The notes beneath the pieces were generated by a model. It was not told the DNA's origin. It did not search any database and saw only the letters and a program-made list of their open reading frames with translations. Shown in pieces: positions 8,420 to 43,529 of a stretch of DNA of 43,851 nt. A program made the translations under genes and the position numbers. Each line of letters starts with the position of its first letter. Position 1 is the first letter of the stretch. The DNA is from a virus. Location of the stretch: the IMG/VR virus record IMGVR_UViG_3300023116_000091, positions 1 through 43,851 of that record. The stretch is one strand, 5' to 3'.

Positions 8420-9358
8420 TCAAATCAATCCTTCTGATAGAATTCTGAATGCCATTGCTGCACACTGCGGAACTTGTCCGTTTCCAATGGCCTTAAGTCG
8501 GTCCACCCGATGGGCCACCCCATGATCCACTCTACCCACGAAGGGTTCAATTGTGCTCCCGTGCATGGAACTTGATTCGTTAACCCCTGCTGTTTGCTGT
8601 TCGGCCCTCGACCCTTCCACTCCGATCGAGTTGGTGTCATCCACTTCTGCGGGGTCTGTGTGCCACCATAGGCTACCGCATTGGGCAGGGTGTCCAACGG
8701 GTTCCCCTTCCGCTGTTGTGCCGCCATCCCTCGAACACCCTTGTAATCTCGGGTGCACGGTGTGGGCCAAGCCTTGACCGCACCCGTTAAGGTTGGACGC
8801 TTCTTTGAGTTGTCGCCTCGGTCGTATTGGTAATCTCCGCTTTCCTTTGCTCGAGGTGTGGGCCAAGACCCACATTCTGTCGCGTTTGTGTGGCGCACCA
8901 ACGTGCCAAGCTCCGAGCACTCCCCATCTTGCAGCATACCCCATTTCGGCCAAGTCTTGGAGGACAACTCCAAGGCCCCGAGTGCGAAGCAATGGTGAGT
9001 TTTCGGCAAAGACAAATTGAGGCCGAATTTCTCCAATGAGTCGCGCATACTCTTTCCACAAGCCCGAACGCTCTCCGGTAATTCCTGCCCCTTTACCCGC
9101 CGCAGAGATGTCTTGGCATGGGAATCCGCCACAAAGAACGTCAACTGCGCCTCGCCATGGTCGCCCATCGAATTCCCTGATGTCTCCAAAGATTGGGAAC
9201 TCTGGCAAAATTCCGTCTCGCTGCCGTGCTCGCAACACGTCTTGGCAGTATGTTTCAATTTCGACTGCTGCAACTGTGGTGTGCCCGAGGAGCATTCCTC
9301 CGAGTATTCCTCCACCTGCTCCTGCAAATAAGTGTAATTCTCGCATTTCATTGTTCAT
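8420..9358 (-). CDS. dcm: DNA cytosine-5 methyltransferase (copy A)
   Basis: Transfers methyl groups from S-adenosylmethionine to cytosine C5 in phage or host DNA, probably as protection from restriction. Motifs counted from the internal ATG at 9346 (shared with copy B): SAM-binding LFAGAGGG (6-13), catalytic GGFPCQDIS with Cys 77, motif VI as ENSPLL, motif VIII KRDRMWVLA (about 154-162) and motif X KAIGNGQVP near the C-terminus. The first possible start at 9358 adds MNNE. The region between motifs VIII and X, where a target-recognition domain normally sits, is about 30 residues longer than in copy B and is dual-coded with another long frame (8425-9351). Lies in the leftward operon and is a paralogue of the gene at 42496-43332. 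Confidence 0.92.
   Translation of the reverse strand: MNNEMRELHLFAGAGGGILGGMLLGHTTVAAVEIETYCQDVLRARQRDGILPEFPIFGDIREFDGRPWRGAVDVLCGGFPCQDISAAGKGAGITGERSGLWKEYARLIGEIRPQFVFAENSPLLRTRGLGVVLQDLAEMGYAARWGVLGAWHVGAPHKRDRMWVLAHTSSKGKRRLPIRPRRQLKEASNLNGCGQGLAHTVHPRLQGCSRDGGTTAEGEPVGHPAQCGSLWWHTDPAEVDDTNSIGVEGSRAEQQTAGVNESSSMHGSTIEPFVGRVDHGVAHRVDRLKAIGNGQVPQCAAMAFRILSEGLI
8425..9351 (-). CDS. Overlapping protein nested in methyltransferase A (WVEWLMG-type)
   Basis: A 308-residue frame on the same strand as the methyltransferase, starting 5 nt upstream of the shared MREL start (ATGAAATGCG holds both ATGs) and stopping 5 nt before it. It begins MKCENYTYL and ends with LNPSWVEWIMGWPIGWT and a DKFRSVQQWH tail. 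Several WPTP or WMTP repeats with nearby KG.G lie in the middle (about residues 160-260). The same frame is full length in the diverged copy B and keeps these motifs. I recall phage proteins with WPTP repeats and a WVEWLMG.P.GWT end, usually found with a methyltransferase; their function is unknown to me. The start overlaps the stop of a 22-residue leader (ATGA), favouring translation. Confidence 0.65.
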   Translation of the reverse strand: MKCENYTYLQEQVEEYSEECSSGTPQLQQSKLKHTAKTCCEHGSETEFCQSSQSLETSGNSMGDHGEAQLTFFVADSHAKTSLRRVKGQELPESVRACGKSMRDSLEKFGLNLSLPKTHHCFALGALELSSKTWPKWGMLQDGECSELGTLVRHTNATECGSWPTPRAKESGDYQYDRGDNSKKRPTLTGAVKAWPTPCTRDYKGVRGMAAQQRKGNPLDTLPNAVAYGGTQTPQKWMTPTRSEWKGRGPNSKQQGLTNQVPCTGAQLNPSWVEWIMGWPIGWTDLRPLETDKFRSVQQWHSEFYQKD

Positions 9359-38987: not shown

Positions 38988-39010
38988 GGGGGAGCGAGTG
39001 CTCCCCCTTT
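38988..39010 (+). terminator. GC-rich stem-loop, possible weak terminator
   Basis: GGGGGAGC/GCTCCCCC with a GAGT loop followed by only three T. A strong hairpin in the gap between recombination and nucleotide/replication genes; partial termination or attenuation is plausible. Confidence 0.5.
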
Positions 39011-39024
39011 ACCAAAATTTACAA

Positions 39025-39525
39025 ATGAAAATAATTGGACTTTGCGGAAAAAAACGCTCGGGCAAATCATCCGCCGCCGAGCACCTGCAACACATTATCG
39101 GCGACCACTGCTACCGATTCTCGTTTGCCGACCAGATCAAGTCCGAGGTCGGGAAGATATTTGGAAAATACCGAGAGGACCGCAAAGAGACTCTGCGCCC
39201 GGTATACCAGAGTGTGGGGGAGGCAGCAAAACAGCTGTTCGGCACAACGGTCTGGGTAGACAAACTCGCCGACAAACTCAGTCGCCTCGAGGATCCGAAC
39301 GCAGTTGTTGTCATCGATGATGTGCGATTTCCGATCGAGTCCGAGTGGGTTCGATCGATGGGCGGAGTCGTCTGGCGGATCCGCCGCCCGGCTACGGACT
39401 GCATTGAGGACTCGCATGTATCGGAGACCAGCGTCGATTTAATCACCCCAGACGAAATTGTGTTCAACGATTCAACACCATTAAATTTCTATGACCGCAT
39501 CACTAAGCTATACAACTGTCATTGA
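39025..39525 (+). CDS. Deoxynucleoside monophosphate kinase (copy B)
   Basis: A 166-residue kinase with P-loop GKKRSGKS (8-15), DDVRFP (98-103), RRP and HVSETS, the same order as copy A at 1069-1599. The two are visibly homologous over their whole length but strongly diverged, so this is not a recent duplication. ATG 39025 is chosen because the conserved MKIIGLCG begins there; no strong ribosome site. The end overlaps the DnaA-like gene by 35 nt. Confidence 0.87.
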   Translation: MKIIGLCGKKRSGKSSAAEHLQHIIGDHCYRFSFADQIKSEVGKIFGKYREDRKETLRPVYQSVGEAAKQLFGTTVWVDKLADKLSRLEDPNAVVVIDDVRFPIESEWVRSMGGVVWRIRRPATDCIEDSHVSETSVDLITPDEIVFNDSTPLNFYDRITKLYNCH

Positions 39526-42382: not shown

Positions 42383-42398
42383 CCCTATATGATTTTGG
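42383..42398 (+). repeat. Intergenic repeat CCCTATATGATTTTGG, copy 1
   Basis: First of three identical 16-bp copies, preceded by C9 and T9 homopolymers. It lies between the HTH gene and methyltransferase cassette B. Confidence 0.75.
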
Positions 42399-42440
42399 AA
42401 TCCGTTGTCGATTTCCGAGACTTAGGGAGGGACTTTTGGA

Positions 42441-42494
42441 ATGAGTAAACTACCAACAGAGCCGGGTCCGTATTACTGGCGCGAGAAAGAATGA
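42441..42494 (+). pseudogene. Truncated PGPYYWRE protein / leader of methyltransferase B
   Basis: MSKLPTEPGPYYWREKE and stop, with AGGGAGG upstream of the ATG. It matches the start of the 75-residue gene at 9913-10140 (LPTKPGPYYWRES) and then ends where the methyltransferase cassette begins; the stop TGA is made by the cassette's own ATGA. It looks like the 5' remnant of a gene interrupted by the cassette, now serving as a translated leader. Confidence 0.6.
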
Positions 42495-43327
42495 AATGCG
42501 AGAATTACACTTATTTGCCGGAGCAGGTGGGGGAATCCTCGGGGGGATGCTCCTCGGTCACACCACAGTCGCTGCCGTTGAAATCGAACCATACTGTCAA
42601 GATGTGCTCAGAGCACGCCAGCGGGACGGAATACTGCCAGAGTTCCCGATCTTTGGAGACATCAAAGAATTTGACGGACGACCGTGGCGAGGGACAGCTG
42701 ACATTGTTTGCGGAGGATTTCCCTGCCAGGACATCAGCGCAGCAGGGAAGGGGGCAGGAATCACTGGTGAACGCAGTGGCTTGTGGTCGGAAATGGCGAG
42801 AGTTATTGGAGAGGTTCGGCCTAGATTTGCGTTTATTGAAAATTCCCCGTTGCTTAGGACCAGAGGACTATCAACCGTCCTCAAAGACCTGGCCTCGATG
42901 GGGTATGACGCGAGATGGGGAGTGCTGGGAGCTTGGCACGTTGGTGCGCCGCATAAAAGAGACCGAATGTGGGTATTGGCCCACACCATGCACCCGAGAT
43001 TACAAGGGAACCAATGCACCGGAAGGACTAACAAGGAAAGACGGAAAGAGCAGGCTAGACCAACTCCCCAATGCGGTAGCTTATGGTGGCACACAGACCC
43101 AGCAGAAGTGGCCAACACCAACTCAATCGGAGTGGAAGGGGCGAGGGCCGAACAGCAAACAGCAGGGGTTGACAAATCAAATTGCATGCACAGGAGCACA
43201 ACTGAACCCATCGTGGGTCGAGTGGCTCATGGGTTGGCCCATCGGGTGGACCGAATTAAAGCCATTGGAAACGGACAAGTTCCGCAATGTGCAGCAATGG
43301 CATTCCGCATTCTTTCAGAGGGATTGA
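42491..43327 (+). CDS. Overlapping protein nested in methyltransferase B (WVEWLMG-type)
   Basis: A 278-residue frame starting 5 nt before and stopping 5 nt before the methyltransferase on the same strand. N-terminus MKCENYTYLPEQV, middle with WPTPCTRDYKG and WPTPTQSEWKGRG repeats, C-terminus LNPSWVEWLMGWPIGWTELK (about 238-257). Comparison with copy A shows poor conservation in the first half but mostly conservative changes (V/I, I/L, D/E, R/K, Y/F) in the last 85 residues, as expected for a translated protein. ATG overlaps the stop of the 17-residue leader, which has a good ribosome site. Function unknown. Confidence 0.68.
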   Translation: MKCENYTYLPEQVGESSGGCSSVTPQSLPLKSNHTVKMCSEHASGTEYCQSSRSLETSKNLTDDRGEGQLTLFAEDFPARTSAQQGRGQESLVNAVACGRKWRELLERFGLDLRLLKIPRCLGPEDYQPSSKTWPRWGMTRDGECWELGTLVRRIKETECGYWPTPCTRDYKGTNAPEGLTRKDGKSRLDQLPNAVAYGGTQTQQKWPTPTQSEWKGRGPNSKQQGLTNQIACTGAQLNPSWVEWLMGWPIGWTELKPLETDKFRNVQQWHSAFFQRD

Positions 43328-43332
43328 TATGA
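42496..43332 (+). CDS. dcm: DNA cytosine-5 methyltransferase (copy B)
   Basis: A 278-residue C5-cytosine methyltransferase: LFAGAGGG (6-13), GGFPCQDIS with catalytic Cys 77, ENSPLL (115-120), KRDRMWVLA (154-162), motif X KAIGNGQVP (255-263). It is closely similar to copy A in motifs I-VIII and in the last 24 residues, but the segment between VIII and X is shorter and dual-coded, so target specificity may differ. The neighbouring Lar-like gene also points to restriction avoidance. Its stop overlaps an ATG of a short frame running into a C10 tract. Confidence 0.92.
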   Translation: MRELHLFAGAGGGILGGMLLGHTTVAAVEIEPYCQDVLRARQRDGILPEFPIFGDIKEFDGRPWRGTADIVCGGFPCQDISAAGKGAGITGERSGLWSEMARVIGEVRPRFAFIENSPLLRTRGLSTVLKDLASMGYDARWGVLGAWHVGAPHKRDRMWVLAHTMHPRLQGNQCTGRTNKERRKEQARPTPQCGSLWWHTDPAEVANTNSIGVEGARAEQQTAGVDKSNCMHRSTTEPIVGRVAHGLAHRVDRIKAIGNGQVPQCAAMAFRILSEGLI

Positions 43333-43393: not shown

Positions 43394-43426
43394 CCTCCTT
43401 TTTGCCCCTATATGATTTTGGTTACC
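43394..43426 (+). repeat. Intergenic repeat, copy 2 (extended)
   Basis: CCTCCTTTTT, then CCCTATATGATTTTGG (43406-43421), then TTACC; the CCTCC is the end of a C10 tract. The flanks agree with copy 3 as well as the 16-bp core. Confidence 0.75.
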
Positions 43427-43494: not shown

Positions 43495-43529
43495 CCTCCT
43501 TTTTTGACCCTATATGATTTTGGGTTACC
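43495..43529 (+). repeat. Intergenic repeat, copy 3 (extended)
   Basis: CCTCCTTTTTTGA, then CCCTATATGATTTTGG (43508-43523), then GTTACC. It lies 102 nt after copy 2. GGTTACCTCC after copy 2 (43420-43429) recurs with one change as GGTAACCTCC at 43490-43499. No gene is visible between 43333 and 43590 apart from very short frames. Confidence 0.75.

Follow-up and report, generated by a model that had tools for sequence, protein, structure and literature searches.

Two reading frames lie almost exactly on top of one another at positions 42,491 to 43,332 of the virus record IMGVR_UViG_3300023116_000091; the window is the whole 43,851 bases of that record, and we refer to this part of it, together with its leader, as cassette B, all features of which are on the plus strand. 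One frame, here called alpha, is that of a DNA cytosine-5 (C5) methyltransferase and runs from ATG 42496 to TGA 43330 to 43332, and the other, here called beta, is the nested +1 frame from ATG 42491 to TGA 43325 to 43327. Each encodes 278 residues, the offset between them is 5 nucleotides (nt) at the starts and at the stops alike, and the frames are co-terminal; the initial annotation of this DNA had given these coordinates exactly. A Shine-Dalgarno-like AGGGAGGGA (42424 to 42432) precedes a leader open reading frame (ORF) of 17 codons (MSKLPTEPGPYYWREKE; 42441 to 42494), the TGA of which forms an ATGA overlap with the beta ATG and is separated from the alpha ATG by 1 nt. This is the leader with a ribosome site that had been described as ending at the nested start, and its stop could possibly couple translation to the beta and alpha starts.

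Along the DNA, alpha carries motif I (LFAGAGG, S-adenosylmethionine [SAM] binding; 42511 to 42531) and motif IV (GGFPCQ, with the catalytic cysteine C77; 42712 to 42729), both in columns that are invariant in our alignment, and motif VIII (HKRDRMWV; 42952 to 42975), which stands near the end of the part homologous to classic enzymes. There follows in beta a putative target-recognition domain (TRD) region with two WPTP modules (42977 to 43201; predicted to be disordered where it is read in alpha) and a predicted motif IX (LNPSWVEWLMGWPIGWT; 43202 to 43252). Alpha motif X (RIKAIGNGQVPQ; 43252 to 43287), identified like motif VIII from the sequence and by hhalign, lies directly 3' of beta motif IX.

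The shifted frame as a selected gene

The openness of the beta frame was evaluated against a null model in which the methyltransferase protein is held fixed, its synonymous codons are shuffled, and stops in the +1 frame are counted. The null is well calibrated, with 336 stops observed versus 326 expected in the other genes of the window and 3,956 observed versus 4,007 expected in 315 flanking genes, none of which is free of +1 stops. The cassette B gene has 0 internal +1 stops versus 5.5 expected, in keeping with the earlier remark that the shifted protein is not random. Frequent stops in related phages had been named as an observation that would speak against a real gene, and the opposite was found: across 342 related methyltransferases, the stretch from 30 to 80% of the +1 frame contains 6 stops versus ∼971 expected. 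A set retrieved with a Klebsiella phage enzyme by alpha sequence only (KlebMT) has 10 stops versus 334 expected. Bacterial PF00145 enzymes served as true negatives, and 46 of them, including Dcm, have 792 stops versus 838 expected, which is no depletion overall, with a few phage-type members depleted. We had considered the distant relatives of enzyme L110 as a beta-less outgroup and rejected them for this purpose, as the middle of their +1 frame is stop-free and stops are confined to the first 30% and the last 20%.

Synonymous sites were also constrained. At fourfold-degenerate codons shared within the L110-related outgroup (45 to 60% amino acid identity), third-base identity is 0.267 where beta is closed, against an expectation of 0.251, and 0.46 and 0.71 where beta is open; flanking genes at the same 45 to 60% identity give 0.41 overall. 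The synonymous-constraint scan over homologs that the initial annotation had proposed finds fourfold sites saturated where beta is closed and constrained where it is open. The methyltransferase motif [VL]A[NHDY][TPSA] reads as WPTP in the +1 frame in 237 of 346 cases, compared to none of 58 in flanking genes; the third base of its third codon has a C:T ratio of 345:1, compared to 17:41 in flanking genes.

These data bear on the proposal that the open +1 frame is a by-product of the amino acid and codon composition of alpha. Synonymous recodings of the methyltransferase still reach ∼120 bits on the beta profile, and the conservation of beta thus follows in part from that of alpha; nevertheless, the real sequence outscores all 20 of its recodings in 266 of 266 cases. 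Together with the calibrated shuffles, the fourfold constraint that tracks beta coverage, and the classic enzymes used as a control, this refutes an origin by chance or codon bias, and we give the by-product proposal virtually no credence. We conclude that the shifted frame is a genuine gene under selection.

Probable division of motifs between alpha and beta

A database search with the shifted frame, also proposed in the initial annotation, returned matches to phrog_1008 (7e-28) and phrog_26627 (6e-14), no match in Pfam or NCBIfam, and nothing in a profile search of the PDB. Relatives of beta are encoded in at least 593 viral-contig and at least 335 bacterial-genome stretches. In all 80 viral loci examined the relative lies in the same +1 frame of a methyltransferase, and in all 80 bacterial-genome loci it overlaps a methyltransferase; no stand-alone beta occurs in these 80 genome loci, and the phage and plasmid matches that we inspected are likewise at methyltransferase genes. 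Both 80-locus sets were chosen by the shifted frame, and the selection tests were repeated on sets chosen by methyltransferase sequence only. A second subunit predicts this confinement to methyltransferase loci. In a tree of 114 enzymes the trait is restricted to one branch, with the open frame forming one side (support, 97).

Alpha matches PF00145 (1.1e-34) over residues 2 to 176 only, and its invariant columns include LFxG, PCQ, EN, HxRxR, and GNGQV; motifs I, IV (PCQ), VI, VIII, and X have the features expected of C5 methyltransferases, but the chain that bears them lacks a TRD and motif IX. In hhalign comparisons with classic C5 enzymes, alpha is aligned over motifs I to VIII (E = 5e-33) and weakly at motif X, and the TRD and motif IX are skipped. 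The AlphaFold model of alpha is ordered at residues 1 to 170 and in the motif X helix (∼258 to 275) and disordered at residues 171 to 257, with a predicted local distance difference test (pLDDT) score of ∼33 at residues 171 to 250. It superposes on M.HhaI over 167 columns at 3.3 Å, and M.HhaI and other C5 methyltransferases are the solved structures closest to it.

The beta sequence contains WPTP twice (residues 163 to 166 and 207 to 210) and has WVEWLMGWPIGWT as its C-terminal end, both of which the initial annotation had pointed out. LNPSWVEWLMGWPIGWT fits the motif IX pattern (RRLTPRECARLMGFE in Dcm), and on the DNA it ends at 43252, where alpha motif X begins. The beta profile matches phage Seagreen gp68 (E = 3.6e-14), a single 511-residue chain in which motifs I to VIII, several LPTP modules, PEWMMGWPAGW, and motif X follow one another in a single frame. 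Mycobacteriophage Zaka gp90, encoded in the +1 frame of gp91, is a beta homolog as well (hhalign E = 1.8e-15) and comprises the TRD and motif IX, continuing into motif X in its own frame. Because the same sequence occurs in Zaka gp90 and in the single-chain Seagreen gp68, beta is most likely the TRD and motif IX part that alpha is missing.

Beta could instead be a separate accessory protein, such as an inhibitor, an anti-restriction factor, or a toxin, that overlaps the methyltransferase by happenstance. Its failure to match Pfam or NCBIfam families is compatible with this, as are its first 65 residues, which are extra to any TRD, and the frequent label "hypothetical protein" in deposited records. 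However, Seagreen gp68 contains the sequence in frame, its counterpart Zaka gp90 carries motif X, beta has exactly what alpha is without, and the 80 genome loci contain no copy away from a methyltransferase; we therefore regard an accessory role as improbable. The initial annotation described beta as a recurrent phage protein type that accompanies methyltransferases, and had taken a lack of homologs outside methyltransferase overlaps as evidence against a real gene. Its recurrence at their loci holds, and homology, the absence of stops, synonymous-site constraint, and start anatomy all favor a real gene that would be translated; rather than an independent companion, it is most likely the missing TRD and motif IX of these enzymes. 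No homolog was found away from such loci among those inspected, and one is present in frame within single-chain Seagreen gp68.

A methyltransferase probably encoded in two frames

Of 288 loci, 200 have their beta ATG 4 nt 3' of the point where the methyltransferase match starts, in most cases as AUGAAUG-type twin starts. The Shine-Dalgarno energy 5' of the starts averages −7.9 kcal/mol, versus −2.5 for in-gene control positions, and in 22 loci where the methyltransferase starts elsewhere the beta ATG keeps a Shine-Dalgarno site (−5.3). Cassette B differs from most relatives in that both starts are placed at the stop of a leader ORF rather than forming twin starts. A precedent for the start mechanism exists in Thermus rnpA/rpmH, where out-of-frame AUGs 4 nt apart (AUGGAUG) share one Shine-Dalgarno site (PMC9841429); its proteins are unrelated to those described here, so the precedent concerns the starts only. 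This arrangement suggests that both starts are used.

It is highly probable, in our assessment, that the two frames at this locus specify the two polypeptides of a single DNA cytosine-5 methyltransferase, both read from the same DNA. Alpha would supply SAM binding, catalysis (motifs I to VIII), and motif X, and beta would supply the target-recognition domain, with its WPTP modules, and motif IX. The DNA order would be collinear with the enzyme (alpha I to VIII, beta TRD to IX, alpha X), and the two chains would combine into a single enzyme with its motifs in the usual order, each frame being mostly linker where the other is functional. Synthesis of both would begin at adjacent start codons, coupled to the leader stop here and served by a single Shine-Dalgarno site at AUGAAUG-type twin starts in most relatives, and the phage would presumably use the enzyme to mark its own DNA against host restriction. 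From these sequence features we infer the translation of beta, its assembly with alpha, the need for both, the DNA target, and the biological role.

The same collinearity, with motif IX ending where motif X starts, could also be explained by a single chain made through two programmed ribosomal frameshifts, from alpha I to VIII into beta TRD to IX and back into alpha X. Frameshifting does not require both frames to be open over nearly their full length, though, and a separate ATG is available to beta behind a strong Shine-Dalgarno site, including in the 22 loci with the alpha start elsewhere. We also know of no precedent for two opposite shifts in one message, which counts against this explanation, and we consider it very improbable.

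A two-polypeptide C5 methyltransferase of this kind is already known in M.EcoHK31I, where the gene for the small polypeptide lies within the gene for the large one but in a different frame. The window shares this nesting. As summarized in PMC3404938, M.EcoHK31I (Escherichia coli; YGGCCR; Lee, Kam and Shaw 1995) consists of a larger polypeptide with motifs I to VIII and X and a smaller one with motif IX, and the introduction of that paper assigns the predicted TRD to the large subunit. The alpha of the window likewise has motifs I to VIII and X without motif IX, and motif IX is assigned to its small polypeptide via the homology chain, the direct profile match being in place but not significant. 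Unlike in M.EcoHK31I, beta is nearly co-extensive with alpha, and the likeness is one of described architecture. M.AquI (Agmenellum; CYCGRG), a naturally split C5 methyltransferase, is described in PMC3404938 as having motif IX in its small subunit; the window differs from this type of split, in which the small subunit has motifs IX and X, because its motif X is in alpha (43252 to 43287). The enzyme of the window thus appears to have an M.EcoHK31I-type architecture, a known kind that proves to be widespread and mostly unannotated or misannotated. The initial annotation considered double coding of an entire enzyme gene to be rare, which does not apply to this family: it is the rule in the clade, and M.EcoHK31I is a published precedent.

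Several observations weigh against a two-polypeptide enzyme. The TRD is placed in beta by homology to a single-chain relative, as opposed to the large subunit, where it is predicted in M.EcoHK31I. When the beta profile is compared with classic enzymes, LMGWP falls on motif IX with an E value of only 0.2, which is not significant, and the motif IX assignment depends on its sequence pattern together with the homology chain that Zaka gp90 and Seagreen gp68 provide. The AlphaFold model of beta has a mean pLDDT of 57, too low for a fold search; the N-terminal ∼65 residues of beta stay open in the inner clade only; and the beta protein is itself deduced from its coding sequence.

Nested forms across phages and a second cassette in the window

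The actinobacteriophage proteins Zaka gp91/gp90, Inventum gp68/gp69, Geodirt gp4, and phiBT1 9.1 resemble the window in having a beta-like part (LPTP modules and motif IX) out of frame with motifs I to VIII, but differ from it in that the overlap is only partial (∼180 nt in Zaka) and motif X is in the beta-like protein. A nested +1 frame of the beta type, as in the window, is present in Escherichia phage K1ind2 (ORF29/ORF28), Paenibacillus phage Likha (gp51/gp52), and coliphage N15 (gp58), where it has no assigned function or is labelled a methyltransferase. Depositors annotated both frames in K1ind2 ("C-specific methylase" and "Mte8-like") and in Likha, and in phPA-G and Vibrio phages 1.236.O and 1.291.O the nested frame alone is annotated, as a hypothetical protein. 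These forms can be arranged as a series with a single chain (Seagreen) at one end, full nesting at the other, and split genes that overlap in part (Zaka, Inventum, Geodirt, and phiBT1) in between; because the tree is not rooted independently, the series is given without a direction. We think it likely that C5 methyltransferases of phages and prophages from several bacterial phyla form a whole clade encoded in two frames with an exchangeable TRD nested inside, that this clade had a single origin from single-chain or split enzymes with no reversion seen among the sampled genes, and that databases list half of each enzyme.

Betas that are otherwise divergent share near-identical TRD modules, FHTPNTTGLDGGSNSRKALKKR among them (A1 columns 160 to 300; L046, L053, L075, L078, and L080), as if recognition modules had been traded between phages in the two frames simultaneously. 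Two viral contigs (L014 and L043) have an internal stop in alpha and an intact beta, for which sequencing error is possible. In the prophage of E. coli PCP07014 (L463:1501-2262), the two frames are interrupted at one point, by a TGA and a TAG that are 4 nt apart; in the record, alpha is marked as a pseudogene and beta is unlisted. At L007:3004-4653 the stop-free beta frame continues into an N6/N4 methyltransferase (PF01555, 1.3e-50); this domain has its own ATG overlapping the alpha stop, and we did not count the locus as evidence of a fusion.

The window contains a second dual-frame cassette, which went unmentioned in the initial annotation. On the minus strand, it comprises a second alpha copy of 312 residues (8420 to 9358) and, nested in its +1 frame, a second beta copy of 308 residues (8425 to 9351), with BLAST identities to cassette B of 74% for alpha and 58% for beta. 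Because the TRD region of the second cassette is longer than that of cassette B, the two may differ in target. Another duplicated function is suggested by two similar P-loop genes on the plus strand (1069 to 1599 and 38998 to 39525; GLxGxKRSGKS), which by eye resemble deoxynucleoside monophosphate kinases. The window has exactly three copies of CCCTATATGATTTTGG (42383 to 42398, 43406 to 43421, and 43508 to 43523, plus strand; 0.02 expected), each copy preceded by a C- or T-rich run and all flanking cassette B; this sequence may represent a phage promoter or a trace left by cassette insertion.

We found no description of this phage-wide overlap in open-licence papers, which is weak evidence of novelty; what appears to be undescribed is its extent (hundreds of phages, and prophages in several phyla), its restriction to a single branch, the nested TRD, and the series from single-chain to nested forms. 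Gene callers keep one of the two frames, and the enzyme is then recorded as a TRD-less methyltransferase or as a hypothetical protein; cloning a recoded version of the annotated gene would abolish the second subunit. In double-stranded DNA phages, long overlaps between two selected genes on the same strand have rarely been established, and this one can be traced through single-chain, split, and nested states, which lets the origin of a two-frame enzyme be tested directly.
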